From contig JARKND010000001.1 in assembly GCA_029309925.1 (NCBI GenBank), positions 1,550,001 through 1,614,000 on the forward strand: a stretch of 64,000 bases of DNA, written 5' to 3'. The notes beneath the pieces are model-generated. The model made no database searches, was not told where the DNA came from, and was given only the letters and a program-made list of their open reading frames with translations. Every line of letters begins with the position of its first letter. Positions within the stretch are counted from its first letter, which is position 1. The position numbers were made by a program, and so were the translations under genes. This stretch comes from Fulvivirgaceae bacterium JP3-4. GTDB lineage: Bacteria > Bacteroidota > Bacteroidia > Cytophagales > Cyclobacteriaceae. Shown in pieces: positions 23,963 through 41,024 of this stretch.

Positions 23963-26900
23963 TTACGCTACGCTGTTGGCAACTTTCGAACCTTCGCGGT
24001 GCTCAACCGGCTGTCGCATAAATTCTTCGGCCCTTTTGTGGATCATGGGCATTTTTTCCATGTGCACGACCTCTACGGCCGGTACACCGAAGTCTTCCAC
24101 AACTTTGCCCCGCAGCAAATAAAATCCGCGGCCCCGGAAAGGAAAGCGTTTCGCGATGTCCGGGAAATGCACCGTATCGAAGACTTCCCCATTCTGATCG
24201 AGGAACGTACCGAAATGCATTGCCTCGCGATTTTTTGTCCGGGCATCTTTGGTCGTCACAATGTATCCCATGATCGACACAGTTTTTCCCAGTTTTTGCA
24301 TCAGTTCACTGGCGACAGTATCACCCCGATCCGCGCTTGCCAATAGCCTGAAAGGGTCGCACAACGGAAAGCCAAGCAGCTCGAGTTCGTCAAACCAGTC
24401 CTCGCTCTCATTCCGCGATAGCGCGGGCAAAGGGTATTCCTTCGGTTCGGTGTCGAAAAGACGGGTGCTTTGTTCTTTCGATTGCGTGTTGCTGAAGAAG
24501 AGCATTGCCTCCCAAAGCAGTCGTTGTTTGCTTTTGCCTGTGAATCGAAACGCTCCCATGCGGATGAGCAGTCGGAGTTGTTCCAGTGTGATAGAAATTC
24601 TCCGCAGAAAATCTTCCAGGCTTTTATAAATTCCGTTTCGGTCGCGCTCCGGACTGATCTCCTGCGCGATCTTTGTCTCAAGACTTTTCAAATGGATGAA
24701 TCCAATGAAAACCTGATCGCCATAAATGTTGGTGAGATAATCACTTTTGTTGACACAAGGTGGCTGAATGTCGGCACCGTTCATGCGTGCTTCGTGAAAA
24801 TAGAACTCAGTTTTGTAGAAGCCACCGAAGTTATTGATCACGCCAACCATAAACTCAAGCGGAAAGTGAGCTTTGAGGTAGAGACTCTGGTAACTTTCAA
24901 CAGCATAGCTTGCGGAGTGCCCTTTCGCGAAAGAATAGCCGGAAAAGCTTTCGATCTCAAACCACACGCGATCGATCACATGCTGTGGATATTCGCGCCT
25001 GGCGCACTCTTCAAAAAATCTTTCCCTGACGCGGTGAAACTCTTCGCGGGAGCGATACTTGCCAGACATGCCTCTGCGGAGCACATCGGCTTCTGTCAGG
25101 GTGAGACCTGCAAACTCATGTGCGACTTTGATCACATCCTCCTGGTACACCATCACGCCATAGGTTTCGCGCATGAGCTCTTCCATCCTGGGATGGATCA
25201 CTTCATAGCCTTTTCCATTTCGCACGGCATGGAACCTTTCAATGTAAGCACGCATCATTCCCGAGCTTGCGACACCTGGGCGGATGATGGAGCTTGCAGC
25301 AACGAGTGTGAGATAGTCTTCGCACCTTAATTTTCCCAGCAGGGCGCGCATGGCAGGCGACTCAACATAAAAACAACCGATGGCACGGCTATCGCGCAAA
25401 AGCGCCTTCACTTTCTCATCCTCCTTGAATTTTTTGAATTGATGCACATCCACAGAAATGCCCTTGTTACGCTTTACGAGCTTCGCTGTTTCTTTGATGT
25501 GGCCGAGACCGCGCTGGCTGAGGATGTCGAATTTGAAAATTCCGAAATCTTCTGCGTTGTGCATTTCAAAATGCGAGACCGGGTAACCCTTCGGTGGAAG
25601 TTCAGTGGCGGTGTAGGCATAGATCGGTTTGTCCGTGATCAATACGCCACCGGCATGAATTGAAAAGTTTGCGGGCAGTTCTTTCTCTACAATGTATGAA
25701 GCAAACCTGAACACGAGGCCTGCGATGTGGTCACGATCTTTACCTGCCTGCGGATTTTCAACCAGTTCGTCAATTTCTTCTTTGGGCAAACCGAAAACTT
25801 TGGCGAGCTCACGAAGAATGGATTTCCACTGGTAGGTGACGTGGGTGGCCAGCAGGCATACATGGTCGTAGCCATAACGTTGAAAAATGTATTCGTAGAT
25901 GGCATCGCGGTTGTCCCACGAAAAGTCGATATCGAAATCGGGTGGTGACGTGCGCTCTTCATTAAGAAACCGTTCGAAATAAAGGTTGAGCTCGATGGGA
26001 TCGACATTTGTTATTCCCAGGCAATAGGCCACAGCACTGTTGGCTCCACTGCCGCGTCCTACGTAGTCATAGCCTTTCGATTTTGCAAAGGAGATAAGGT
26101 CGTATGCGATCAGATAGTAAGCGGTGAACTCTTTTCGCTCAATGACGCGCAACTCTTTTTCAATGCGCGACCATACTTCTTTATTGTCTCCGTAGACACG
26201 TTTGAATCCCTTCCATGTTTCTGCCTTGAGGTACGCAAGATCAACGTCTCTTGATTCAGTGAAGACTTTTTTGTTTTTGTCTTCACCCTGGCGGATATCG
26301 ATGGTGCATTGTGCCAGCAGTGAACGCGTGTTGTCAATCAGCTCGGGAAAGTTTTCAAAGCTGCGTTCGAGTTCCGCTTCGCTAACCATGAATTCGTCTT
26401 CATGAGCTTCTTCCTGCTTATCGAGTTTGCTCAGCAAGGTGTTTTTTGCAATGGCGCGAAGGAGACGGTGCGTGTTGAAGTCGCGCTTATCTGTTTTTCC
26501 GCCTGGCAATGTTTTATTAGGAAGAAATGTTACAGGGTGCAACACGACATATTTGTGCATGAATTCATGGCGCTCCTGATTGACAGAAAAGTTGTGAAGC
26601 TGTGACTTGCGTACCCCGATAAACTCATTCGCACGAAGCTGGAATGGTTCCTGCTTCTGAAAAGGATACACGACAAATACATCGCCATTGAAATCGGGAG
26701 CGCGGTTCGGAAGTGGTTTGGCTTCACGGTTGTGGTGCGAGAGGAAGCGGTTCAATTTCTCGAAGCCAGCATTGTTTTGTGCGATCGCTATATAAAGGAG
26801 CTCGTCATCTTTCCGGAACTCTATTCCAACTGCAATTTCGAGCTCGTACCCAAGCGTGCCAAAATCTGTCATTCCGTTTTCTTTTGGAGCGTTTCGGGAA

Positions 26901-27100
26901 CAGAGGCGCAGCATCTCCATGTACGAAGCTGTGTTGTTGATCTCGGTAAGCACAAGTTTCCGGATGCCGCATCGCCTCGCCTCCTCAAAAAGCTCCCGTA
27001 CGGGCATGGTGCCGTACTTGAAACTGAAGCCCGTGTGGCAATTCAGCGATAGCCCGCCCGTTAATTTCTTGAGATTTTTATGTTTCAACGCCTCATCCAT
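23963..27100 (-). CDS. DNA polymerase III alpha subunit, short error-prone (DnaE2/ImuC-like) form
   Basis: A C-family polymerase of about 1045 residues, shorter than replicative DnaE. The catalytic aspartates are present in SPPDFDIDFSWDNRDAIYEY, with SIHAGGVLITDK and GYSFAKGHSASYA further on. The C-terminal OB domain is seen (VSIMGYIVTTKDARTKNREAM). The N-terminal PHP domain is degenerate: the metal-binding HxH is replaced by NCH and the D-H motif reads E-I. The ATG at 27100 lies 11 bases after the recQ stop. An earlier ATG at 27142 would overlap recQ. The form, and a Y-family polymerase with a LexA-like repressor 4-5 kb away, suggest a damage-tolerance role. Confidence 0.85.
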   Translation of the reverse strand: MDEALKHKNLKKLTGGLSLNCHTGFSFKYGTMPVRELFEEARRCGIRKLVLTEINNTASYMEMLRLCSRNAPKENGMTDFGTLGYELEIAVGIEFRKDDELLYIAIAQNNAGFEKLNRFLSHHNREAKPLPNRAPDFNGDVFVVYPFQKQEPFQLRANEFIGVRKSQLHNFSVNQERHEFMHKYVVLHPVTFLPNKTLPGGKTDKRDFNTHRLLRAIAKNTLLSKLDKQEEAHEDEFMVSEAELERSFENFPELIDNTRSLLAQCTIDIRQGEDKNKKVFTESRDVDLAYLKAETWKGFKRVYGDNKEVWSRIEKELRVIERKEFTAYYLIAYDLISFAKSKGYDYVGRGSGANSAVAYCLGITNVDPIELNLYFERFLNEERTSPPDFDIDFSWDNRDAIYEYIFQRYGYDHVCLLATHVTYQWKSILRELAKVFGLPKEEIDELVENPQAGKDRDHIAGLVFRFASYIVEKELPANFSIHAGGVLITDKPIYAYTATELPPKGYPVSHFEMHNAEDFGIFKFDILSQRGLGHIKETAKLVKRNKGISVDVHQFKKFKEDEKVKALLRDSRAIGCFYVESPAMRALLGKLRCEDYLTLVAASSIIRPGVASSGMMRAYIERFHAVRNGKGYEVIHPRMEELMRETYGVMVYQEDVIKVAHEFAGLTLTEADVLRRGMSGKYRSREEFHRVRERFFEECARREYPQHVIDRVWFEIESFSGYSFAKGHSASYAVESYQSLYLKAHFPLEFMVGVINNFGGFYKTEFYFHEARMNGADIQPPCVNKSDYLTNIYGDQVFIGFIHLKSLETKIAQEISPERDRNGIYKSLEDFLRRISITLEQLRLLIRMGAFRFTGKSKQRLLWEAMLFFSNTQSKEQSTRLFDTEPKEYPLPALSRNESEDWFDELELLGFPLCDPFRLLASADRGDTVASELMQKLGKTVSIMGYIVTTKDARTKNREAMHFGTFLDQNGEVFDTVHFPDIAKRFPFRGRGFYLLRGKVVEDFGVPAVEVVHMEKMPMIHKRAEEFMRQPVEHREGSKVANSVA

Positions 27101-27110
27101 CTTTTTTGGT

Positions 27111-29330
27111 TTAAACCGCAACGTATTCCTCAACTCTTTCATTCACGCTGGTCTCGCCTGGGCCTTCGCCATAGGAGAGATGAGGCTCTTCAAGTTTCGC
27201 ACCCTGCCGGTGAGCAATGACATATCGTATTTCCGAGAACGAATAGTTATCGCCAAGCTCAAGTTTAAGAGGTGTGAGCGCCCTGTCACCGACACGATCG
27301 ATCGCTTTTTCAATTTCTTTGATCTTGTCGTGCGCGAGGACACTGTCAAGCGGAATCTTTCCAAGCCTGATGTAGAAAGCAATATGGCCTTCAATGGTAG
27401 AAGGGGCCAGCTTGCGCGCCTCAGCAATTTGGGCAACAGTGTTACCCTGTTTGAACAGCCGGAGCGTTAGCCGCTTTGTTGCTGTGTCTGATTCCAGGTT
27501 GGCTCGTTTGAAAATCTTTGGAGCCTTCAACTGCATTTTCGATTCAACGTTGTTCAGTTGGCAGTATGCAATGACCACGTCAAGAAATGTCTGCCCATAC
27601 TTTCGGATTTTCGTTTCCCCGAATCCTGAAATCTGCGCAAGGTCAATGGGGGTCAACGGAAGGTACGTAGCGAGCTCTTCCAGGCTTGCATCCGAAAGCA
27701 CAACGAAGGCGGGGACCCCTTCTTCGCTGGCGAGTTTTCTTCGTACGGTTTTCAAGTCCTGCAGCAACATTGAAGACACTCCCGGTTTGTTCTCGAAAAA
27801 TAATGTTTCATGCTCGAGCCGTTTCCGCGTCAGCGAAATATTCAATTTTTTCTCGATCGTGCGGAAGCCAAGCTCAGTCAACTTCAGCACCGGATAACTT
27901 CCTTTCGTTTTTACAAGGTATCCATGCGACACCAGGCCCGCCAACATGTTCTGCCATTCAGTTTTTGATAATGCATTGCCCGAAGCATAAGTGTGGAGGA
28001 GCTTGTGATCCGGCTGAATTTTGTTGCTTGTCGATCCCCATAAGAAATCGACTACATAACCAGCACCAAATTTTTCGCCCAAGGTTTGTATCGCCTGTAG
28101 TGCTTTTGTCCCTGCTTCAGTGGCATCGTATTCTTCAACATTTTGCAGACATACATCACAGTTGCCGCAGTAGTCTGTCGTGTTCTCGTCAAAATAGTTG
28201 AGAAGAAATTTTCTCCTGCAGTAATTCACTTCCGCAAGCCTTGCCATTTCATCGAGCTTCCGCAGCTGAATGGCAGTTTGTTCCGGATTGTTTTCGATCA
28301 TCACAAATTTTTTCAGCTTCGCGATATCACCGGAGGAGTAGAACATGAGTGCAATGCACGGGAGGCCATCGCGGCCTGCGCGGCCTGTCTCCTGGTAATA
28401 GCCTTCGATATTTTTTGGGACGTCCATGTGCACAACAAAACGCACATTCGATTTGTCGATACCCATGCCGAATGCAATGGTCGCCACAATGATCTTTACA
28501 TCGTCTTTCAAAAATTTGTCCTGATGCAACGTCCGCGCTGGCAGGTCTAAACCGGCATGATAGGGAAGTGCATTATATCCGGCCACTTGCAGATCCTCCG
28601 CAAGCGTTTCGGTCGAACGCCTCGACAAGCAATAGATAATACCTGATTCATCTTTGTGCTCCGACAAAAAATTAAGAAGCCTGTCGAAGGCGTTTACTTT
28701 ATCCTGCACCAGATAGCGAATATTGGTTCTGTTAAAGCTTGAGGTGAAAATATTTGGGGAGGTGAGTTCCAGTTTGTCCAGTATATCTTTTTGCGTCAGC
28801 CTGTCGGCTGTGGCGGTAAGGGCGATCACCGGCACTGAAGGAAAAACGTTCTTCATTCGCGCAAGCATCAGGTAGTCGGGACGGAAGTCATGGCCCCATT
28901 GTGAAATGCAGTGGGCTTCGTCAATTGCAATGAGACTGATCCTGACATTTCTAAGGTGATCAAGGAGGTTGTCATTCTTGACGAGACGCTCGGGCGCAAT
29001 GTACAGAAGCTTCACTTTGTTTTCCTTCACCAGTGTAAGGACTTTCTCCTGCTGTTGAAAGCTGAGTGTTGAATTCAGGTACGCAGCCCTGATGCCGTTG
29101 ACGCGTAAAGCATCCACCTGATCTTTCATCAAGGCAATCAGCGGTGACACGACAAGCGCAACTCCCCCGAGCATCAGCGCTGGGATCTGGTAACAAAGGG
29201 ATTTGCCACCGCCAGTCGGCATCAGTACAAAAGTATCACGGCCAGAAAGCACGGAATGAATTGCTTCTTCCTGTCTGAGACGGAAGGATTCGTAGCCAAA
29301 AGTTTTCTTTAAAATCTCCAAAGGTGTCAT
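27111..29330 (-). CDS. recQ: ATP-dependent DNA helicase RecQ
   Basis: A 3'-5' helicase of 739 residues acting in recombination and fork repair. Walker A MPTGGGKSLCYQIPAL is near residue 38 and the DEAH box in LIAIDEAHCISQWGHDFRPDY near residue 133. Motif VI QETGRAGRDGLPC is present, and the zinc-binding cysteines follow (NYCRRKFLLNYF ... CGNCDVC). A winged-helix RQC region and an HRDC domain (residues ~510-590) follow. The end (residues ~630-690) adds a helix-turn-helix (RLFKQGNTVAQIAEARKLA), common in Bacteroidota RecQ. It precedes dnaE by about 10 bases, so the two are likely cotranscribed. Confidence 0.95.
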   Translation of the reverse strand: MTPLEILKKTFGYESFRLRQEEAIHSVLSGRDTFVLMPTGGGKSLCYQIPALMLGGVALVVSPLIALMKDQVDALRVNGIRAAYLNSTLSFQQQEKVLTLVKENKVKLLYIAPERLVKNDNLLDHLRNVRISLIAIDEAHCISQWGHDFRPDYLMLARMKNVFPSVPVIALTATADRLTQKDILDKLELTSPNIFTSSFNRTNIRYLVQDKVNAFDRLLNFLSEHKDESGIIYCLSRRSTETLAEDLQVAGYNALPYHAGLDLPARTLHQDKFLKDDVKIIVATIAFGMGIDKSNVRFVVHMDVPKNIEGYYQETGRAGRDGLPCIALMFYSSGDIAKLKKFVMIENNPEQTAIQLRKLDEMARLAEVNYCRRKFLLNYFDENTTDYCGNCDVCLQNVEEYDATEAGTKALQAIQTLGEKFGAGYVVDFLWGSTSNKIQPDHKLLHTYASGNALSKTEWQNMLAGLVSHGYLVKTKGSYPVLKLTELGFRTIEKKLNISLTRKRLEHETLFFENKPGVSSMLLQDLKTVRRKLASEEGVPAFVVLSDASLEELATYLPLTPIDLAQISGFGETKIRKYGQTFLDVVIAYCQLNNVESKMQLKAPKIFKRANLESDTATKRLTLRLFKQGNTVAQIAEARKLAPSTIEGHIAFYIRLGKIPLDSVLAHDKIKEIEKAIDRVGDRALTPLKLELGDNYSFSEIRYVIAHRQGAKLEEPHLSYGEGPGETSVNERVEEYVAV

Positions 29331-30684: not shown

Positions 30685-31890
30685 TTAAGGGTTCTTCATC
30701 CTCTTCGGACCCTTGAACATGTTCAACTCCATGCGCACTCGCTTATTCACTTCTATCGTGTTTGAGCGGATTATTTTTTCTGCTCCATATTTATGCTTGA
30801 TGTGATCGATGGCCTGATAGAGATTGATGTTTTCTTCCGTGTCATCGAAAAGGCTGATCTGATGATTGCCGTGAACCAGACCACTCAGGCGAACACCCAC
30901 CAGGCGGATCAACATTCTCCTGTTATATAGTTTGTCAAACAAAGCTGTCACTACATTTAGAATGACATGGTCGGAGGAGGAGTAGGGGATATGGACCTGC
31001 TTTGTCTCCGTGTCGAAGTTTGCGTAACGGATCTTCACCGTCACGCAGGAGGTCAGCTTCTTCTGTTCGCGCAAGGTGAACGCGACCTTCTCAACCATCG
31101 CGATGAGTATATTCTTCATCCGCTTCACGTCAATAGTGTCGCTTTCAAAAGTGCATTCTGTCGAGATTGACTTTTGTTCGCTATAGGGGACGACAGGGGA
31201 AGAATCGATACCCTGCGCCTTATTCCACAACGAGAGGCCGTTCTTGCCAAAAGCGCTCACCAAAAATTGCAAAGGCATTTCGCGCAACGTCTGCACTGTG
31301 CGCACGCCCATGTCGTATAGGAATGAGGCAGTTTGTTTTCCGACCATCGGTATTTTTTCAATCGACAATGGCCCGAGGAAATCTTTTTCAGTGCCGGCCG
31401 GAATGTGTTTTTCTGCATTCGGCTTGAATTCTCCCGTTGCAACTTTTGATACGAGCTTGTTCACGGACATGCCCAGGGAAATCGGCAGGTGACTTTCTTT
31501 TTGAATTTTCTTCCGCAACTCGACAGCCCACTTGAATGCGCCAAAGTAGCGGTCCATGCCACTGGCATCGATGTAGAATTCATCGATGGAAGATTTTTCA
31601 AAAGACGGAGACTGCTCCTCTATAATCTCTGTTACATCGTGCGAAGCCTGGCTGTAGGCTTCCATGTCGCCAGAAATAACTTTGGCTTCGGGACAAAGTT
31701 GCAATGCGAGGTACATCGGCATCGCAGAATGAACACCAAATCTGCGTGTTTCGTAACTGCAGGCTGCCACAACACCTCTGCGACTGCTGCCACCGATAAT
31801 GAGTGGCTTGCCTTTAAGCTTCGGGTTTTTGCGGCATTCCACAGCCACAAAAAATGCATCGAGATCCAGGTGTATAATGTTCCGCTCCAT
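30685..31890 (-). CDS. Y-family DNA polymerase (DinB/Pol IV type)
   Basis: A 401-residue translesion polymerase. The catalytic motifs are intact: NIIHLDLDAFFVAVECRKNP at the start and SFEKSSIDEFYIDASGMD near residue 100 (the SxDE pair). The DNA-binding HhH region includes IEKIPMVGKQTASFLYDMG, and the little-finger domain follows. A C-terminal tail (NMFKGPKRMKNP) may hold a clamp contact but no canonical motif is clear. It is divergent from the XRE-S24 repressor, and both operators lie in the 180-base space between start codons. Its predicted -7 element overlaps one operator. Confidence 0.92.
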   Translation of the reverse strand: MERNIIHLDLDAFFVAVECRKNPKLKGKPLIIGGSSRRGVVAACSYETRRFGVHSAMPMYLALQLCPEAKVISGDMEAYSQASHDVTEIIEEQSPSFEKSSIDEFYIDASGMDRYFGAFKWAVELRKKIQKESHLPISLGMSVNKLVSKVATGEFKPNAEKHIPAGTEKDFLGPLSIEKIPMVGKQTASFLYDMGVRTVQTLREMPLQFLVSAFGKNGLSLWNKAQGIDSSPVVPYSEQKSISTECTFESDTIDVKRMKNILIAMVEKVAFTLREQKKLTSCVTVKIRYANFDTETKQVHIPYSSSDHVILNVVTALFDKLYNRRMLIRLVGVRLSGLVHGNHQISLFDDTEENINLYQAIDHIKHKYGAEKIIRSNTIEVNKRVRMELNMFKGPKRMKNP

Positions 31891-31950: not shown

Positions 31951-32071
31951 TTACAAAGTTGTTTGCCATAGCAACGTTTTATAGTTGGAAAATTACTTTC
32001 GTGAGGGTTTCCGCAGGTACTTTGCGGAGACTTCACAAGTAATTGTATTTGTGAAACCAAAAAACCAGTTC

Positions 32072-32848
32072 ATGGCAACCGTTAATAAAAACCTCAAATT
32101 TTTACGCGTACAGGGAGGCTTCACACAAAAGCAACTCGCAGAGAAGCTCGGTCTGAAACAGGCCGCTGTCGGAGCCTACGAGGAGGAGCGTTCAACGCCA
32201 CCTGTTTCCTGCCTCATGGAGATTTCTAAAATCTTTTCGGTGAGCCTGGATCATCTGATCAACAGTGACCTCAGCAGCATGCCACAGAAGGAATGGAAGT
32301 CGCGCGGTGCTTCAAAAAGTAAAGAGGTCCTGGCCATTACCGTTGACACAAATAATAAGGAGAACGTTGAGCTTGTTCCGCAGAAAGCTTATGCTGGCTA
32401 TACCTCGGGCTTTCAGGATCCGGAATTTGTGAAAGACCTTCCGAAGATCAGTTTGCCGATGTTGCCAAAAAATAAGACACATCGTGCGTTTGAGATCAAA
32501 GGGGATTCAATGCTGCCCATACTTCCCGGAAGTGTGATATTCGGTGAGTACGTTGAAAATGTTGAAAACATTAAAAACGGAAAACTTTATATTTTGGTAA
32601 CCCGTCAGGACGGCATCGTCTTCAAGCGGATCTTCAGTTTTGCAGACCAGCGAAACAAATTATTATTGGTTTCCGACAACCGCTCATACGAACCTTATTC
32701 GATCAGCACTGATGATGTGCTGGAGATCTGGGCAGCGAAAGCGTATTTTTCAAATCAGTTTCCAGAGATTGAAGCAAACACTTCTCTGGTTGATCAGCTG
32801 GCCCTTCAACTGTTTCAGCTGCAGCGGGAAAAAAAGAATAAGAAGTGA
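32072..32848 (+). CDS. XRE-family repressor with S24 (LexA-like) peptidase domain
   Basis: A 258-residue regulator. Residues ~8-62 form an XRE helix-turn-helix (FTQKQLAEKLGLKQAAVGAYEEE). The C-terminal S24 domain shows the serine in FEIKGDSMLPILPGS and the lysine in GIVFKRIFSF, the LexA self-cleavage dyad. A candidate Ala-Gly cleavage bond is in QKAYAGYTSGF between the two domains. In this family damage-triggered cleavage relieves repression. The ATG at 32072 was chosen since the HTH follows it directly. The divergent translesion polymerase is the probable target. Confidence 0.88.
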   Translation: MATVNKNLKFLRVQGGFTQKQLAEKLGLKQAAVGAYEEERSTPPVSCLMEISKIFSVSLDHLINSDLSSMPQKEWKSRGASKSKEVLAITVDTNNKENVELVPQKAYAGYTSGFQDPEFVKDLPKISLPMLPKNKTHRAFEIKGDSMLPILPGSVIFGEYVENVENIKNGKLYILVTRQDGIVFKRIFSFADQRNKLLLVSDNRSYEPYSISTDDVLEIWAAKAYFSNQFPEIEANTSLVDQLALQLFQLQREKKNKK

Positions 32849-32868: not shown

Positions 32869-33360
32869 TCAGGCACGCGAGGATGGGTCAGCAACTTTTG
32901 CAATGATAGCGCTTTCAATTTGTCCGGACGCAAGAAGCGTTTCGTTAAAGTACCTTGCGATAAACGCGTGAACCATATCCTTAAACCCATTGTATGAATC
33001 CGGCTTGGTGACAACCTGTTCTGCGCCAAGCGCGACAAATTCAGCAATGAGCGATGCATCAGGATAGGTAGAATAGATAATGACCGGAATATTGCGGAAA
33101 CGCTCGTTCGCCTTCAGGTAAGTGAGCGTGGCTTTGCCGGTCATCTTCGGCATATTCTGATCGAGTATAAAAAGATGGGGAAGTTCGTCCTCATGGCGGA
33201 GGTCCTTGAGCCGGTTAATGACTTCAATCCCGTCCTCAACGGCTTCGAGACAAATTCCTGGCGCATTCATTTCTTCAAATGCTTCTGCGAAAATCAGCCG
33301 GTCATCCTGATCGTCTTCCGCTAACAAAATAACTCTTTTACACTGCACCTTTGCGCTCAT
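32869..33360 (-). CDS. Response regulator, receiver domain only
   Basis: A 163-residue single-domain CheY-like protein. ILLAEDDQDDRLIFAEAF gives the acidic pocket, LFILDQNMPKMTG the phosphoacceptor Asp, then VIIYSTYPD (Thr/Ser position) and VVTKPDSY (Lys). The DDQDD start and N-x-P-x-M-x-G pattern match receivers that commonly accompany phytochrome and CheB/CheR kinases. The ATG at 33360 is four bases after the kinase stop codon, so it is the likely phosphoryl acceptor of that kinase. Output is unknown because no effector domain is present. Confidence 0.92.
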   Translation of the reverse strand: MSAKVQCKRVILLAEDDQDDRLIFAEAFEEMNAPGICLEAVEDGIEVINRLKDLRHEDELPHLFILDQNMPKMTGKATLTYLKANERFRNIPVIIYSTYPDASLIAEFVALGAEQVVTKPDSYNGFKDMVHAFIARYFNETLLASGQIESAIIAKVADPSSRA

Positions 33361-33364
33361 CACT

Positions 33365-36300
33365 TCATGACTGCTTAAGAGGAATAATAAACGAAAAAAT
33401 TGTGCCATGGCCCGTTTCGCTTGTCGCATGGATGAGGCCGTGGTGTTTTTCAATTATTTTTTTCGTCACAGCGAGCCCGATCCCCGTCCCCTCATATTTG
33501 TCTTTCGAATGCAAGCGCTGAAAAAGCTGAAAAACGCTTTCGCTGAATTCTTTCTCGAAACCGATGCCGTTGTCGCGAACGAAAACGCGAACGAATGGTC
33601 CATCGGCCTTTTCTTTTCCATTAAATTCTTTTGCGGCAATCCGGACGGAATTCACTTCAATTTCAGGCGGAACACCCGGCCTTGAAAATTTCAACGCGTT
33701 GCTCAGCAGATTCTGAAATACCTGCCGCATCTGACCGGGAATAACTTCGGCTTCCGGAAGATTTCCGATTTTTATTTTGGCATTCTTTTCATCTATAACT
33801 ATTTCAAAATCTTCCAGCAGATCTTTGACGAGCTTCGACAGGTCAATGGCCTCAAAGTAATCTCTATCGCCCGATAATTTTGAGAAATTCAGCACACTTG
33901 ATATCATTGACTTCATGCGCTGTGACGACTGCAGTATTTTCTCGAGGTACTGTGAGGCTTCGGGCTGTTCCTTTACATAACGTTCCTTCACGAGGTGCGC
34001 GAACATGTGGATCTTGCGGAGTGGTTCCTGCAAGTCGTGCGAGGCAACGGAGGCAAACTGCTGCAAATCATAGTTGCTGCGCTCAAGTGCTTCATTCATT
34101 TCCTTCAGTTGGCGCGTCCGTTCATCAACTTTGTTTTCGAGAAACTGATTCAGATTTTTCTGTTCGTGAATATCAATCGTGGTGATCACCCAGCTGATGA
34201 GATTGCCGTTAGTTTCTCTTCGCGCTTTCGCGGATAACACGTTCCAGTGATAATCGCCATTGGCTGTTTTAACGCGAACCTCGACCTGAAAATCTTTCTT
34301 TTCATGGCTTGCCTTCTTCCAATCGTTCATCAGCTGCGTGAGGTCGTCCGGATGTATGACGCTTTGCCAGCCATTACCGATTGCCTGCTGCTGCGACATT
34401 CCCGTATAAAGCTCAAACTGGCGATTGGCGAAGTTTACATTCTCTCTCGGATCGGTGGTCCACACGATCAATGGCATGGATTCAGCAAGAAACTTACGCT
34501 GTGCATCGATCTGCGCTATCTCTTGCTTTGCGAGATTCTGCTCCGTGAGATCAAACATGGATCCAAGCATTCGATAGGGGATCTCATGCTCATCATGCAA
34601 TACGTAGGCCCGGTCGAGAATGTCGGCATAACGGCCATCAGCCTTCAAAAACCTATACTCTCGCATCCATTGATTCTGATTGCTGTTGATCACGTGGTGC
34701 AGGCTTTTTTCAACGCCTTCCCGATCGTCAGGGTGAATCTTCGCAAGCCATTGCGCGCGTGTTGACAGGTCACTCTTGTTGTCATAGCCGAACATCGTGT
34801 AGAAGGATTCGCTCCACCACATCTTGTTGTTCACGAAATCCCAGTCCCACAACGCGTCATTTGTTGCCCGGCCCACCAGGCGGAACCGCTCTTCACTAAC
34901 CGACAATGCGCGAGTCCGTTCAGCAACTTTTTCTTCCAGTTCCGCATTGAGCCTTTTTAGATTTTCCTTAACCGTAACGAGTTCAGCGTAATTTTTCTTA
35001 AGGCGCTGCTCGGCAATTTTTTTGCTGGTGATATCGGTGAACGTTGCCACGAAGCCATCGGTCATTTTAACCGCTGTCACTTCGAGCCACTGCTGCGTGC
35101 TTTCGATAAAGATGTCAGCAAGCACATCCTTGTCCCTGGTGACCACCGATACGTAACGGTCAAACATCTGTGGCGGTGCCAGCCAGCTGAGATCTTTCTT
35201 CAGCATTTTGTTGGCGACATCGCTGACGATAGATTCAAAGATCTTGTTTGCGGAATCATTGGCGGTAATCGCGCGGAAGTCCACGATCGTGTTGTTGTGG
35301 TCACGGATACTTTCAAATGCTACAATCCCGCTGCGACTCGCATTGAACACACCCCGGATGATGTTATTGAGCTTCGTGATTGTAGTTATATCCACAAAGG
35401 AAATGATCACGCCACCGATAATGTTATCGCGCGTTACGTATGGCATAATTCGCATGAGCATATTCTTTCCGCTGACCAGCTGCACTTCTTTCTCGATGAT
35501 CTGATTTTTATTCAACACCAGATTGATGTCATCCGTGAGCCTTTCATGCAGAATGTTGTTGGATATATGTGAGATCGGGCGGCCCACGTCCGAATCGATG
35601 AAATTGATCATCTTCGCTGACGCGGGATTGAATTTCCGAATGTGAAGATCAGCATCCAGGAAGATCTGTGCAATGTCAACACTCCGGAAATAGTTATTCA
35701 GGTCATCATTCAATTCCAGCAGTTCACGTATTTTCAGCTGATGTTCCGTATTGAGCGTGTGCAGCTCCTCGTTAACAGACTGCAATTCCTCGTTGGACGA
35801 CTGAAGCTCTTCATTGGCAGAAAGCAATTCTTCATTGCTGGATTGAAGCTCTTCGTTGGTCGTTTCCTGGTCTTCAATTGCCAGCTGAAGGTTGTACTTT
35901 GTTTCCTGCAGCTCGTCCTGTAAGGAAGCAATGTATTCGTCAATGCTCTTTGTGTCTTCCTGCCGTGAGGCAATGCGGACGCTGTTTTTTGTGTCGTGAT
36001 AGTTTTCGACAATGGTGATCAGCGTCAGGTTTTCAAAATGTGAACCCTGGGGAGGCTTGATGACGATGTTAAAGTAGTGTGCCTCATCTTCGCGCTGAAA
36101 CCGCACGGAGCGCAAATGGATCTTTTGTTTATTTCGCCAGGCCCGTTTGATCTCTGCACCGATGAGTGTGGAATTTTCTGCAGGAATCATCTGCAGCAAC
36201 TGAAACTTGAAATCACGATTAGGCAGTGAGAGTATCTTCGAATAATTTCCGATCGCTTTCTTGATTTCAAAGTTATGATCGATGTAAAAGGCAGAGCAAT

Positions 36301-37885
36301 GCAGGTCCTCGCTGAGCACCTGTTCGAACTCTTCCCATATGTTGCCCTGCCGCGGAGGAGCTTCGCGTTCGTATAACTTCGTGGTTCTTAGTGAACTTTC
36401 TTTGCGCTTTTCGAAGCCACTCAGCGTGAAGGTCATTGACTTTCCATCCGTGACCTTCCTGAAGATCTTCCACTTGGCGCTCACATCAGCAACGTTGTTC
36501 TTAAAGTAGTTCGCGTGCTCGCTCGATCCAAGGAAAAGATATCCATCAACACGAGTTGAGTACAACAGCACGGCATAGACCTTTTGCTGAAGTACAGGAT
36601 TCATGTAGATGAGCATGTTCCGGCACGTTACAATATCCTTCTTGATGAAGGGAGGGTCCTTGGTGATATTGTGCCGTGCAAAAACAATTTGTTTTCGTAT
36701 CCGTGGGTTCACCACGTACCCGCTCTCCAACTTTGTAAAATATTTGGAAAGTGTTTCAGAGGGTAAGTCATTTTTAATGTCGGATGGATATTGGCCATGA
36801 GACGCAATTTCGATGTGAACCTTGTCGAGATCTGTCGCGAAGATCTTTACATCCAGTTTGCGGTTCATCTCCTCAAGCACCTGGTCGATGATAATCGCCA
36901 TGGAATACGCTTCCTCACCGGTGCTGCATGCGCTGACCCAAACCTGGATCATGTCGTCAGCGGTCTTTTTTTCAACAAGCTCTGGTATAACCTTCTTTCT
37001 CAGGATTTCCCACGCCTCCGGGTCGCGAAAGAATTTGGTGACACCGATAAGGAAATCTTTACCAAGCTGAGTGCACTCTTCGGCATCTTGCCGCAAAAGT
37101 GCAAGGTAATCAGTAACTGAGCTGATTTTTTTCTGGACCATCCTGCGCGAGATTCTGCGGATCAGCGTAGGTGTCTTGTAGTAATGGAAATCGTGGCCAT
37201 TGCGTTCATGAATCAATCCGAAAATTTCTTCAAGCTCTCCATCGGTGATACCTGAGGCTGCCGACAGCAATGCCGGCTCATTGAGGTATGTAATGAGTTC
37301 CGAAGGCATATCGGCAGGAGAGAGGATCAGGTCCGCGTTACCGGTGTTAATGGCGCTGTTCGGCATACCATCAAACTTCGCAGTGGCCGGGTCCTGCACG
37401 ATCACAAAGCCACCCGCTTCCTTTATAGCTTCAACGCCTTTTGTTCCATCGGTTCCTGTACCCGAAAGAATAATTGCGATCGCATCTTCTTTCTGGTCTT
37501 CCGCAAGTGAGTACAGGAAAACATCTATTGCATTGTTAGGAAATTTCGCTGGGGGTTTGTCAGACAGCAACAACCTTCCGCTTGCGATGCTGAGGAACTT
37601 ATTGTTTGGAATGATATAGATGCAGTTGGCCTTCACCTCCGCCTGGTGGCGCGCCTCTAGCACGTGCATGTGCGTATGGCGCCCTACAAGCTCAACGAGC
37701 AAGCTCTTGTGATCGGGAGAAAGGTGCTGAATAATGATGAACGAGCAATTGATGCTCTCCGGCATGCTGTCAAAAAAGGCGTGGATCGCTTCGAGTCCAC
37801 CCGCAGAGGCACCAATGGCAACCACTGCGTGATTCCCCTTATTCTTTTTGCGCGTCTTCTTTGGCAGTTCTTCCGGTTCGGTCAT
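33365..37885 (-). CDS. CheB-CheR-PAS-histidine kinase fusion
   Basis: A 1506-residue multidomain sensor protein. In order: CheB methylesterase (AIGASAGGLEAI with Ser27; HLSPDH; SGTGTDGTKG), CheR methyltransferase (TKFFRDPEAWE; WVSACSTGEEAYSMA), a long coiled coil with NEELQSSNEELLSANEEL repeats, and three or more PAS domains (WDWDFVNNKMWWSESFYTMFGY; LIVWTTDPRENVNFANRQF). A HisKA domain (FASVASHDLQEPLRKIH) and HATPase_c (QNLLSNALKFS; VRDNGIGFEK; GTGIGLAVTKKIIEKHHG) close the chain. No methyl-accepting chemoreceptor is seen nearby. Its ATG overlaps the phytochrome stop as TAATG, implying coupled translation. It presumably supplies the kinase that the phytochrome lacks (inference). Confidence 0.93.
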   Translation of the reverse strand: MTEPEELPKKTRKKNKGNHAVVAIGASAGGLEAIHAFFDSMPESINCSFIIIQHLSPDHKSLLVELVGRHTHMHVLEARHQAEVKANCIYIIPNNKFLSIASGRLLLSDKPPAKFPNNAIDVFLYSLAEDQKEDAIAIILSGTGTDGTKGVEAIKEAGGFVIVQDPATAKFDGMPNSAINTGNADLILSPADMPSELITYLNEPALLSAASGITDGELEEIFGLIHERNGHDFHYYKTPTLIRRISRRMVQKKISSVTDYLALLRQDAEECTQLGKDFLIGVTKFFRDPEAWEILRKKVIPELVEKKTADDMIQVWVSACSTGEEAYSMAIIIDQVLEEMNRKLDVKIFATDLDKVHIEIASHGQYPSDIKNDLPSETLSKYFTKLESGYVVNPRIRKQIVFARHNITKDPPFIKKDIVTCRNMLIYMNPVLQQKVYAVLLYSTRVDGYLFLGSSEHANYFKNNVADVSAKWKIFRKVTDGKSMTFTLSGFEKRKESSLRTTKLYEREAPPRQGNIWEEFEQVLSEDLHCSAFYIDHNFEIKKAIGNYSKILSLPNRDFKFQLLQMIPAENSTLIGAEIKRAWRNKQKIHLRSVRFQREDEAHYFNIVIKPPQGSHFENLTLITIVENYHDTKNSVRIASRQEDTKSIDEYIASLQDELQETKYNLQLAIEDQETTNEELQSSNEELLSANEELQSSNEELQSVNEELHTLNTEHQLKIRELLELNDDLNNYFRSVDIAQIFLDADLHIRKFNPASAKMINFIDSDVGRPISHISNNILHERLTDDINLVLNKNQIIEKEVQLVSGKNMLMRIMPYVTRDNIIGGVIISFVDITTITKLNNIIRGVFNASRSGIVAFESIRDHNNTIVDFRAITANDSANKIFESIVSDVANKMLKKDLSWLAPPQMFDRYVSVVTRDKDVLADIFIESTQQWLEVTAVKMTDGFVATFTDITSKKIAEQRLKKNYAELVTVKENLKRLNAELEEKVAERTRALSVSEERFRLVGRATNDALWDWDFVNNKMWWSESFYTMFGYDNKSDLSTRAQWLAKIHPDDREGVEKSLHHVINSNQNQWMREYRFLKADGRYADILDRAYVLHDEHEIPYRMLGSMFDLTEQNLAKQEIAQIDAQRKFLAESMPLIVWTTDPRENVNFANRQFELYTGMSQQQAIGNGWQSVIHPDDLTQLMNDWKKASHEKKDFQVEVRVKTANGDYHWNVLSAKARRETNGNLISWVITTIDIHEQKNLNQFLENKVDERTRQLKEMNEALERSNYDLQQFASVASHDLQEPLRKIHMFAHLVKERYVKEQPEASQYLEKILQSSQRMKSMISSVLNFSKLSGDRDYFEAIDLSKLVKDLLEDFEIVIDEKNAKIKIGNLPEAEVIPGQMRQVFQNLLSNALKFSRPGVPPEIEVNSVRIAAKEFNGKEKADGPFVRVFVRDNGIGFEKEFSESVFQLFQRLHSKDKYEGTGIGLAVTKKIIEKHHGLIHATSETGHGTIFSFIIPLKQS

Positions 37886-39402
37886 TAGCTTCTGTATGGT
37901 GAATTTATGGATTTGTATTCCATGATGAAACCCCGCAACTTCTCCGCGACCTGCAGCTGCGCTGGTAGCCATTCAGTTGAAGTTCCGCTGACTTTCTCCT
38001 GCCATTGCTTGAATGAATTGCGCGGGTGATAATTTTTTTCGTCTTTTTCGAATTGGATACGCTCATCAGGGTTTCCTCCCCATGTGATCACCTTCACTAC
38101 TTCGGGTCGGAACAAAATCAGATATTCTTCCTCGGTGTAATCCATTCGTATCGCAAGAAAGCCACTTCCAATTTCCTTAAAGTCATCGGCCTGATCATAA
38201 ATTGATGACAATGACTCCGTTGAAAAAATTGCAGGAATGTCGCGCGTCTGGAGCCAGAGGATCAGATCGTCTATGTATGCCTTGTCGGGAACATCGCCTG
38301 CAGCAGTATACTGATCTCCCTTCGTAATGATTGCCCCTGTCGCGTCAAACAACTCCAGAATCCCGGTCGTGGAGAAAAAGGCTTCGTTCAGAGATTGTTT
38401 TTTATACACGTCTTCGAGAACAATGGTATACCTTTCTTTAATCTGCGTGTCAAAGTCATGCGACTCACGGGTAATGAGCGCAGAAATTTTTGCAGAGATG
38501 ATATTGGAAAGCAGTTCGAAAACCGAACATAACTGGTAGCTTGGATTCTTTGCCGCACGATGGTGGCATGCAATCAATCCCCACAGTTTGTTGTCTTTCG
38601 TGATCCTGATGGACATGGACGCTGTGACGCCCATGTTCTTCAGATACTCGAGGTGGACAGCGGCAACACTGCGGAGATTTGTATCTGAAAGGTCGATGAA
38701 CCCTTGCGTTATCGGATTGATCACGGGGTAGAGTTTCACTGGCTTGTAAGCGGCATCAGGAATCAGGCGATACGGAATTTTTGTGTACATCTGCCGGGCA
38801 GGCTTAGGGATATCAGATGCAGGAAACGTGAAGCCCATATAGGATTCCATTCCTTCTTCCTTCACTTCCGCGAGTACCGTGCCGTTCCACTCTTCATCAA
38901 AGCTATAGATCATCACCTTGTCGAAACCTGAAATGCGCTTGAGCTCTTCCGCTGCAATGCGACAAACGTCCCTGACATTTTTTCCCGATTCTATGGCTGA
39001 CATGCTCTTGCGCGTTTCCTGAAACACCTGCACAAAAGTATCCTGCTCATTCTGCACGACAGGGTTCAAATCGATCTCGGCAACAAAATATTTTTCACGG
39101 CTATGTACGAGCACGAGAAAATCTTTTCCTCCAATTGTCCAGGTCATCGGCAGGCGATTCTCATACGCACCTGTGAATTTCTGTAATGCTTTTACATTCT
39201 TTTCACCGATGATAGCAGGCAGACTTTGATCAATTATGTCCTTAAAAGGCATTCCGAAAACTGCGTCAGCGTTCTCGCTGATCTGAATTATCTTCAGCCT
39301 TGTTCGATCTACAATGACCAGAACACCATGCGGTTGAATTGAATTGGTTAAATGAATCGGGAGACTCCCGCACAGGTCTGAATCATAGTTTTTTTGCGTC
39401 AT
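37885..39402 (-). CDS. Bacteriophytochrome photosensory core without output domain
   Basis: A 505-residue red/far-red photoreceptor. Cys11 in DSDLCGSLPIHLTNSIQPHG is placed to bind biliverdin. The PAS domain (to ~110) is followed by GAF with the canonical FPASDIPKPARQMYT motif and LWGLIACHHRAAK, and a PHY domain with the tongue motif HPRNSF. The protein ends about 40 residues later, with no histidine kinase or other output. It overlaps heme oxygenase upstream by 20 bases and the kinase fusion downstream by one base. Length equals a complete PAS-GAF-PHY module, so it is not simply truncated by frameshift. Confidence 0.92.
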   Translation of the reverse strand: MTQKNYDSDLCGSLPIHLTNSIQPHGVLVIVDRTRLKIIQISENADAVFGMPFKDIIDQSLPAIIGEKNVKALQKFTGAYENRLPMTWTIGGKDFLVLVHSREKYFVAEIDLNPVVQNEQDTFVQVFQETRKSMSAIESGKNVRDVCRIAAEELKRISGFDKVMIYSFDEEWNGTVLAEVKEEGMESYMGFTFPASDIPKPARQMYTKIPYRLIPDAAYKPVKLYPVINPITQGFIDLSDTNLRSVAAVHLEYLKNMGVTASMSIRITKDNKLWGLIACHHRAAKNPSYQLCSVFELLSNIISAKISALITRESHDFDTQIKERYTIVLEDVYKKQSLNEAFFSTTGILELFDATGAIITKGDQYTAAGDVPDKAYIDDLILWLQTRDIPAIFSTESLSSIYDQADDFKEIGSGFLAIRMDYTEEEYLILFRPEVVKVITWGGNPDERIQFEKDEKNYHPRNSFKQWQEKVSGTSTEWLPAQLQVAEKLRGFIMEYKSINSPYRS

Positions 39403-39949
39403 GATGCTCTAGCCATTTTTTAAATTTTACAAAGGTCTCGCTTGCTGCGCGATGCGTTTCTTCGAAGTCATCGTTCGTGACTGAAGCGTGAAGATGATTT
39501 TTAAATTTCTGCCACATGTCTATGGTTTCATCATGATAGCCTTGAAAAAAAGTGATCGCACCGTCCAGTGTCGGAACCTGCTTCAGCAACATCTTCGAAA
39601 TGATTTTCCCTCCAAGGGTGGAGCCTTCAAGTACATACATCGCTCCGAGCGCTGCGGCCGGTGAATCGATTTCGGGAAGGTCATGGCAAACCGGGAGATC
39701 ATGTGTCGGGTAAGCCAGTCGTTTCAAGTCGTTGAGAATGGCCGCTGACTTCCTGCGGGCAGTGTAGTCGGGAAGGTGATCCTTATGGTGGTCGAGTTTT
39801 TCTTCGAGACCCGCGTAGTATCCGTACATCAGCCGCAGAAGGGAAACGTATCGGTCGGAATCATTGACGACCTGGATGTGGCTAAGTAACTTCTTCTCAA
39901 GGTCGGCATGCACGACCCTGGTCTGTTCTTTTAATTCATCTGCAAGCAT
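39383..39949 (-). CDS. Biliverdin-producing heme oxygenase
   Basis: A 188-residue heme oxygenase that opens heme to biliverdin, the phytochrome chromophore. It begins MLADELKEQTRVVHADLEK, with H14 as probable proximal heme ligand. The distal helix reads GAMYVLEGSTLGGKIISKML near residue 103 (the G-x-x-x-G glycines above heme). FFQGYHDETIDMWQKFK follows. Bacterial homologues next to phytochromes are called BphO or HmuO-like. Its stop lies 20 bases inside the phytochrome gene, so the chromophore enzyme and apoprotein are made together. Confidence 0.92.
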   Translation of the reverse strand: MLADELKEQTRVVHADLEKKLLSHIQVVNDSDRYVSLLRLMYGYYAGLEEKLDHHKDHLPDYTARRKSAAILNDLKRLAYPTHDLPVCHDLPEIDSPAAALGAMYVLEGSTLGGKIISKMLLKQVPTLDGAITFFQGYHDETIDMWQKFKNHLHASVTNDDFEETHRAASETFVKFKKWLEHHDAKKL

Positions 39950-40063: not shown

Positions 40064-40975
40064 TCAGGTCCAGCCAATTCCTTTACGAAGGAATGCGAGG
40101 GTAGCCTGCTCCGCGGAACCTTCGGCCGGCTGATAATTGTATTGCCAATTTGCCTGGGGCGGCAGGCTCATTAAAATCGATTCGGTGCGCCCGTCTGTCT
40201 CCAAACCGAACTTCGTACCGCGATCCCACACCAGGTTAAATTCTACGTACCTGCCTCTTCGTAAAAATTGCCATTGTTTGTGACTGTCGTTATAGGAAGC
40301 ACTTTTATTTTGCTTCATCAATTCTGTGTACGTTGGCGCGAAAGCCAAACCTACAGCCTTGACAAATTCGAAGCGATCCCTTTTGGTAAAGCGCTCGTTG
40401 CTTTTGAGGTTGTCAAAGAAGATTCCGCCTATGCCGCGGGTTTCGTTCCGGTGCCTGATAAAGAAATAATTGTCTGCCCAGGTTTTGAATTCATTGTAAT
40501 AACCCGGATCAAAGCGATCGCAGACTTTCTTGAGTTCACTGTGAAAGAACCTCGCGTCAGCCTCTTTTACGTAGTGCGGAGTAAGATCAATTCCGCCACC
40601 GAACCACCATATACCATTCGACATTTCAAAGTAACGGACATTCATGTGAATGATGGGTACGAAGGGATTGTGCGGGTGCAGCACAATGGAGACTCCCGTA
40701 GCAAAAAAATCCGGTTGCTGATCAGCAGGAAGGTTCAACGTTTTGAGTGTCGGCTCTGGCGTTTTTCCCCAGACCGCAGAAAAATTGACGCCTCCTTTTT
40801 CGATGACGGTGCCATTTGTCAGAACGCGCGAAATTCCTCCGCCACCGCCCGGACGTTCCCACCGGTCAGGGATAAATTTTCCACTTCCATCGGCTTGTTC
40901 AAGGGAAGAACAGATCTCATTCTGCAAGCTGATGAACCAGTCTGTGATCTCGTCTCTGGCGGGAGTGTCGTTCAT
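40064..40975 (-). CDS. hemF: Oxygen-dependent coproporphyrinogen III oxidase
   Basis: Oxidative decarboxylation of coproporphyrinogen III in heme synthesis, needing O2. The 303 residues include FSAVWGKTPEPTLK, the signature WWFGGGIDLTPHYVKEADARFFH near residue 125 and YNEFKTWADNYFFIRHRNETRGIGG with catalytic-site residues. RRGRYVEFNLVWDRGTKFGLETDGRTESI closes the fold. The ATG at 40975 is chosen on family alignment and promoter position. It lies 114 bases upstream of the heme oxygenase gene on the same strand, a sensible metabolic link. Confidence 0.95.
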   Translation of the reverse strand: MNDTPARDEITDWFISLQNEICSSLEQADGSGKFIPDRWERPGGGGGISRVLTNGTVIEKGGVNFSAVWGKTPEPTLKTLNLPADQQPDFFATGVSIVLHPHNPFVPIIHMNVRYFEMSNGIWWFGGGIDLTPHYVKEADARFFHSELKKVCDRFDPGYYNEFKTWADNYFFIRHRNETRGIGGIFFDNLKSNERFTKRDRFEFVKAVGLAFAPTYTELMKQNKSASYNDSHKQWQFLRRGRYVEFNLVWDRGTKFGLETDGRTESILMSLPPQANWQYNYQPAEGSAEQATLAFLRKGIGWT

Positions 40976-40993
40976 TTTTAAATGACATTTGCG

Positions 40994-41024
40994 CAAATAT
41001 GGAAGGATTCAGTTACTTAACCAA
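40994..41024 (-). promoter_or_regulatory. Candidate promoter of hemF
   Basis: Minus strand TTG (41022-41024), a 20-base spacer and CATATTTG (40994-41001), one mismatch to TAnnTTTG. The leader would be about 13 bases. Confidence 0.45.

Follow-up and report, generated by a model that had tools for sequence, protein, structure and literature searches.

A bacteriophytochrome without an output domain and its neighbouring CheB-CheR-PAS kinase: a candidate two-protein light receptor in Bacteroidota

Phytochrome kinases, CheB/CheR fusions and the adaptation of methyl-accepting chemotaxis proteins (MCPs) are each already known. The bacteriophytochrome two-component systems DrBphP, Agp1, SaBphP2 and PsBphP have in common a PAS-GAF-PHY sensor with a biliverdin cysteine and a PHY tongue, and their gene set includes heme oxygenase and a lone receiver, as does the locus described here. 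CheB/CheR fusions (cheBR) occur in many phyla and have the same CheB-CheR-PAS-coil-PAS_10 core as the kinase of this locus; we found no characterised member, and in the accessible part of PMC8396549 the fusions are merely counted in a table. Ppr of Rhodospirillum/Rhodocista centenum, as the available passages of PMC2993699 and PMC5812497 present it, is a bilin-binding photosensor tied to chemotaxis proteins. Among open-licence papers, taken by titles, abstract openings and passages, no study of the operon described below or of methylation of the CheB-CheR coil was recognised.

Gene layout and the phytochrome without an output domain

In the window, by which we mean the whole 64,000-nucleotide stretch of DNA that was analysed, the operon and the domains of its kinase are laid out as follows.

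39383..39949, minus strand: heme oxygenase, the biliverdin maker, 188 aa (Pfam Heme_oxygenase, 5.4e-15)
37885..39402, minus strand: output-less bacteriophytochrome, PAS-GAF-PHY only, 505 aa (Pfam, alignment, model, fold match)
33365..37885, minus strand: partner kinase, CheB-CheR-PAS-coil-PAS_10-PAS-PAS_3-PAS-HisKA-HATPase, 1506 aa (Pfam, PDB sequence matches)
37295..37822, minus strand: CheB methylesterase domain, kinase residues 22-197 (Pfam; triad S27, H54, D146 kept)
36470..37237, minus strand: CheR methyltransferase domain, kinase residues 217-472 (Pfam, alignment)
35750..35857, minus strand: tandem NEELxSx heptads, kinase residues 677-712, candidate methylation substrate
35384..35701, minus strand: PAS_10 domain, kinase residues 729-834 (Pfam)
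34526..34912, minus strand: PAS_3 domain, kinase residues 992-1120, common to phytochrome-paired kinases and the candidate input site
33374..34066, minus strand: HisKA and HATPase_c, kinase residues 1274-1504 (Pfam; phosphoacceptor H1283)
32869..33360, minus strand: lone receiver with an LDQNMP phosphoacceptor motif, 163 aa (Pfam Response_reg, 3.7e-14)

The heme oxygenase and phytochrome ORFs, as called, overlap by 20 bases, the phytochrome stop and the kinase start have one base in common (TAATG), and 4 bases separate the kinase from the receiver; ORF calling and Pfam thus agree with the original prediction on the gene set and on all three junctions. On the same strand, 114 bases 5´ of the heme oxygenase gene, lies a coproporphyrinogen III oxidase gene (40064-40996, minus strand; Pfam 3e-126), which would link the provision of heme to that of biliverdin. 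Since a like gene was found at only one other fetched locus (L147), its position is not a conserved part of the arrangement. Also in the window are a Y-family DNA polymerase gene (IMS domains; 30685-31890, minus strand), back to back with an HTH and S24 peptidase gene (31985-32848, plus strand) in an arrangement that resembles SOS-type repair cassettes, and then RecQ and DNA polymerase III alpha genes (23963-29330).

The phytochrome has the PAS-GAF-PHY core that defines a bacteriophytochrome, as judged from both Pfam and structure-model matches. PAS_2, GAF and PHY all score above the Pfam cut-off, with PHY (2.4e-42) covering residues 327-495 of 505, and neither Pfam nor the model has a C-terminal output domain, kinase or other, past the end of PHY. 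The structure model (mean pLDDT 86.2, pTM 0.82) terminates in a single helix, residues 480-500, at the point where kinase-bearing phytochromes continue; it matches solved PAS-GAF-PHY photosensory modules, among them Agp1, Cph1 and DrBphP, as does the sequence. The NCBIfam BphP model NF041576 aligns with residues 3-494, scoring 267.6 bits where the cut-off is 1040. This protein is the only PHY match in its genome.

Residues C11, D197-I198-P199, P460-R461 and S463-F464 are invariant in 20/20 aligned relatives, so that the N-terminal cysteine, the DIP motif and the PRxSF tongue of bacteriophytochromes are all present. We take C11 to be the candidate biliverdin-binding cysteine, and DIP and PRxSF to be phytochrome motifs, the latter in the PHY tongue. 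Given this invariance, biliverdin binding and photoswitching are expected, and the retention of both the biliverdin and the tongue motifs speaks against decay of the phytochrome.

Conservation of the phytochrome-kinase pair

A search for PHY gave a match in 48 of the 295 genomes available for the GTDB-style family and in 40 of 395 phylum genomes, and a search of species genomes for relatives of the sensor gave 23 loci. ORFs were called at the fetched loci and their domains labelled with profiles grown from the window's own proteins. The family sample was taken without the fragments of G098:C59; in the phylum sample, 48 match rows gave 20 regions, two of them with short phytochromes and the rest with 19 longer phytochrome ORFs. 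Frame-broken or cut loci (L052, L053, L070 and L072) were removed before counting, as were L063 and L066, whose contigs duplicate those of L032 and L031 (lengths 958222 and 115605). At two of the removed loci, L052 and L053, CheB-CheR pieces are close to the phytochrome as well.

Unrelated genes beside the phytochrome in homologous operons had been named in the original prediction as the outcome that would speak against it. Instead, a CheB-CheR kinase gene immediately adjoins, on the same strand, 33/35 distinct intact output-less phytochromes from Bacteroidota (family 13/14, species genomes 18/19, phylum 2/2; with two duplicate copies on contigs of species-genome loci included, the family count is 15/16). 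For longer phytochromes, the corresponding numbers are 1/50 ORFs in the family, where the 50 include three that are short, cut or odd (L069, L070 and L071), 0/19 in the phylum and 0/2 in the species genomes. The pairing is more than chance. The sole longer phytochrome beside such a kinase, L110:7620 (G019), has the kinase gene upstream (L110:10016-13666, 1216 aa); in this kinase, asparagine replaces the CheB histidine. Of the two unpaired output-less phytochromes, one (L064) comes from a genome that is 82% complete and the other (L047, 8983-13001) has a heme oxygenase gene and, as the next large gene, a GH127 glycoside hydrolase. No CheB-CheR match to the window kinase was found at E 1e-60 in either genome, that of L047 giving kinase-tail matches only. 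Among the plasmid matches to the sensor, no output-less, kinase-paired case was seen in the rows inspected; the one match examined around its phytochrome, H1, has a frame of 711 aa and is not output-less.

The sensor lies upstream of the kinase in 32 pairs, at intergenic distances of -20 to 86 bases, which are lower bounds because the nearest in-frame start was chosen. The translation coupling that had been proposed for this junction fits the spacing in the window and in some of its relatives, 18/32 pairs overlapping or lying at most 15 bases apart; it does not extend to the others, which are 21-86 bases apart. In 22 of these 32 pairs the gene directly preceding the sensor, on the same strand, encodes heme oxygenase, and in 15 a receiver gene comes directly after the kinase. 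In Sporocytophaga (L049) the order is reversed, with the kinase ahead of the phytochrome and the neighbours kept.

Trees were built by quick searches with SH-aLRT support only. In the sensor tree, the 34 output-less rows form one clade (SH-aLRT 99) with two long phytochromes inside; with what is essentially a single clade of output-less sensors, the pairing counts are not independent, and one ancestral operon could explain them. Fisher tests were set aside because they would treat related genes as independent. For 31 operons, the sensor and kinase trees have 23/28 splits in common (shuffled mean 0.24, maximum 3), congruence that co-inheritance alone would yield as well.

The two long phytochromes within the output-less clade bear PAS-kinase and kinase tails; they are L046, of 896 aa, from Segetibacter koreensis, and L050, of 752 aa. 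Apart from itself, and among the ORFs at hand, the L046 tail is best matched by the partner-kinase C-terminus of L136 (48.7%), and the L050 tail by that of L042 (43.5%). In the kinase-domain tree both tails group with partner kinases, at SH-aLRT 92-93, below the 95 mark. In the L046 genome, nothing matches the window kinase better than the tail of the phytochrome itself (E 1e-97). These natural fusions indicate that the sensor can sit directly on this kinase core and, at the level of sequence, argue for direct phytochrome-kinase coupling.

The CheB-CheR kinase and its conserved coil

The partner kinase carries CheB and CheR in one chain (Pfam 1.1e-54 and 7.6e-48), along with CheR_N, PAS_10, PAS_3, other PAS domains, HisKA and HATPase_c, and its PDB sequence matches are to CheB, CheR and histidine kinases. 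The HisKA histidine, H1283, is present in 52/54 aligned kinases, the other two being gapped there. The CheB triad S27, H54 and D146 is whole in 32/32 paired kinases, and the CheR residues R287, E325, D352, N423 and Y427 are kept in 54/54 aligned kinases, with roles that we presume to be those of the Salmonella enzymes. Since its catalytic residues are kept, it would be wrong to describe the CheB-CheR part as idle.

Among matches to the window kinase in the 295 family genomes, the first 15 places are all taken by the phytochrome-paired kinases, which number 15 with the window kinase counted, and the matches ranking after them extend only to about residue 980 of the window kinase. By their CheB-CheR part, the paired kinases divide three ways: 22 rows form one large clade, 8 rows form another, which groups with unpaired kinases (support 86, no star), and the third group is the Sporocytophaga pair. 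In the kinase tree, a supported split (97) divides their tails, which thus represent two clades or more; L135 may add a third. PAS_3 is nonetheless on the same ORF in 31/32 paired kinases, at 117 bits or more, and on the second piece of the 32nd, the frame-broken L052; among the unpaired CheB-CheR kinases it appears in 1/22, weakly (50.8 bits, L086). Retention of PAS_3 despite the mixed tail clades makes it a candidate phytochrome input site. PAS_3 as a unique phytochrome mark was rejected because other kinases commonly have PAS domains like it: a PAS_3-like match is present at E 1e-10 in 200/295 family genomes, and one protein of G176, 692 aa long, reaches a score within the range of the paired kinases.

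The genome of the window also encodes a paralogous CheB-CheR-PAS kinase with no adjoining phytochrome (L086:6614-10633, G000:C1). Two of its CheB triad residues are lost (S to A, D to N), the checked CheR residues are kept, and just upstream on the same strand an ORF of 275 aa gives a partial match to CheB. On the same contig, at L088:2030-7746, the CheB-like and CheR-like sequences are encoded by individual genes that share a strand, and after them comes a gene for a 1154-aa protein with a PAS match; this set is perhaps an unfused form of the same system type.

Between the PAS domain that follows CheR and PAS_10, the kinase has a coil, predicted as a continuous helix (residues 648-736) that contains NEELQSSNEELLSANEELQSSNEELQSVNEELHT. 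The model of the N-terminal half of the kinase has low overall confidence (pTM 0.35) and does not reliably fix the position of the coil relative to CheR, so secondary structure alone was used. Over 54 kinases, mean identity is 85% in the coil, 66% in CheB, 59% in CheR and 41-60% in the PAS domains measured, which makes the coil the best-conserved stretch measured and a class-wide feature of CheB-CheR kinases. All 54 rows agree at E685, E686, E692, E693, E699, E700 and E707. We infer that these glutamates face outwards, with N and L as core positions; if so, a structural coil alone is an insufficient explanation for them.

We scanned for runs of at least three tandem heptads of the pattern [EQ][EQ]xx[ASTG][ASTG]x, which accepts any of A, S, T and G in each of the two small positions and is wider than the published motif. 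Such runs are present in 46/58 CheB-CheR ORFs and in 3/111 kinase ORFs that lack one or both of the CheB and CheR labels. Two of those three (L060 and L124) carry CheR and are pieces of CheB-CheR genes, leaving as the true exception L073, a multi-PAS kinase without CheB-CheR that has three heptads. One of eight PAS-only ORFs has a run; this ORF is a fragment of a paired kinase whose gene is broken (L053). No run was found in 1462 ORFs without kinase, PAS or CheB-plus-CheR labels, the only one of these with two heptads being the MCP of the window genome, or in 11200 shuffled coil segments. Divided by pairing, runs of at least three of these methylation-site heptads, one mark of a methyl-accepting protein, are present in 32/32 paired and 12/22 unpaired kinases; the remaining 10/22 unpaired CheB-CheR kinases have fewer than three perfect heptads. 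The coil was also found in 4/4 CheB-CheR fusions examined from Azospirillum, Deinococcus, Sinorhizobium and Caballeronia, some with fewer perfect heptads. A CheB-CheR-coil protein of 1023 aa on an Azospirillum ramasamyi plasmid (L185:3893-9600) is encoded with a 4-base overlap with a PAS domain S-box gene, a further case of a CheB-CheR gene closely coupled to an adjacent one. The MCPsignal hairpin, which binds CheA/CheW, was not detected in the Pfam scan of the window kinase at E 0.01.

Two earlier statements about the CheB/CheR part need revision. The heptads and their conservation supply a concrete candidate, the kinase's own coil, for what had been called an unknown substrate. The operon does lack a chemoreceptor, as had been remarked, but as worded the claim that none is present does not hold for the genome, which has one MCP ORF in a cluster with CheR and CheB with a receiver (L084:6759-15826, G000:C5). 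By sequence inspection, this cluster has CheW- and CheA-like genes too.

A proposed two-protein light receptor, its alternatives and its relatives

We consider it probable that the operon encodes a two-protein light receptor in which the phytochrome acts in trans on the CheB-CheR kinase, and CheR and CheB adapt the kinase's own coil. Heme oxygenase would provide biliverdin, and the PAS-GAF-PHY protein would be a red/far-red light switch that, having no output of its own, works through contact with the CheB-CheR-PAS-kinase encoded by the adjacent gene. Docking would most likely be at the PAS region ahead of the kinase core, with PAS_3 as the best candidate, and the phytochrome would thereby set the phosphorylation level of the lone receiver, presumably by phosphotransfer from the kinase. 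The tandem NEELxSx heptads of the coil appear to resemble chemoreceptor methylation sites, which CheR and CheB may reversibly methylate with no outside chemoreceptor required; such methylation could reset the kinase after a lasting change in light, that is, allow adaptation. The step from phytochrome to kinase draws on the pairing and the fusions, and the tuning of the coil on the motif and its conservation. More generally, CheB-CheR fusion kinases may be self-adapting receptors, with the coil as an MCP-like helix methylated and demethylated within the chain or dimer and with a separate phytochrome as the input here, a reading that we offer tentatively.

The position of the receiver gene after the kinase, in the window and in 15/32 pairs, and the several PAS domains of the kinase, which could sense something else, would also suit a phytochrome and kinase that are separate inputs to the lone receiver or another common protein, with no direct contact. 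We think this unlikely, given that 17/32 pairs have no receiver gene directly after the kinase, that the fusions connect the sensor to the kinase core itself, and that a phytochrome without catalytic output must bind something anyway. Still weaker is the case for functionally unlinked, accidental neighbours in an old operon kept by descent. Although one sensor clade and congruent trees are what co-inheritance alone predicts, the adjacency has survived a reversed order (L049), gaps of -20 to 86 bases, replaced kinase tails and two fusions; conservation of the pair goes beyond frozen gene order, and this explanation is hard to credit.

Two further alternatives concern the methylation substrate. 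With CheB and CheR predicted to be active beside a phytochrome in an operon without an MCP, the phytochrome itself could be the substrate, as a soluble photoreceptor in the chemoreceptor's place. However, 0/35 output-less phytochromes have two or more tandem heptads (26 have one and 9 none), compared with at least three in 32/32 paired kinases; this alternative is very improbable, and the phytochrome as CheR substrate was rejected for its lack of tandem heptads. It is equally hard to favour action of the kinase's CheB and CheR on the ordinary chemoreceptor of the genome, by which light would feed taxis or gliding. The one MCP does have tandem methylation-like heptads, but its cluster already has its own CheR and CheB, and the presence of the coil motif in 4/4 fusions examined from other phyla points to a substrate in cis; we give this reading little weight.

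If the light receptor with a self-adapted kinase proves true, it would be a methyl-accepting receptor for light with built-in adaptation and without a chemoreceptor, through which chemotaxis-type memory enters ordinary two-component signalling. The phytochrome would serve a separate kinase as a switch that can be detached, a division into two parts found in nature and useful for optogenetics, and CheB and CheR in the widespread fusion kinases would have a testable role in adapting their own signalling coil.

Among known systems, the bacteriophytochrome two-component systems share the sensor type, and the partner kinase core matches the DrBphP kinase (8avv, 4.3e-25); in contrast to them, sensor and kinase are separate in the window, and the kinase adds CheB, CheR and a methylation-like coil. 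Unlike other cheBR fusions, the window subgroup is phytochrome-paired and has an extra PAS_3 ahead of the kinase. MCPs differ in that the window kinase is soluble, has no MCPsignal among its Pfam matches and combines substrate and enzymes in one chain; its output is a HisKA kinase, whereas that of MCPs is CheA. Ppr is alike in being a bilin-binding photosensor with a link to chemotaxis proteins, but, as described in the available passages of PMC5812497, it is a single chain (Pyp, bilin domain, kinase) without CheB/CheR domains, whereas the window system divides photosensor and CheB-CheR kinase between two adjoining genes.
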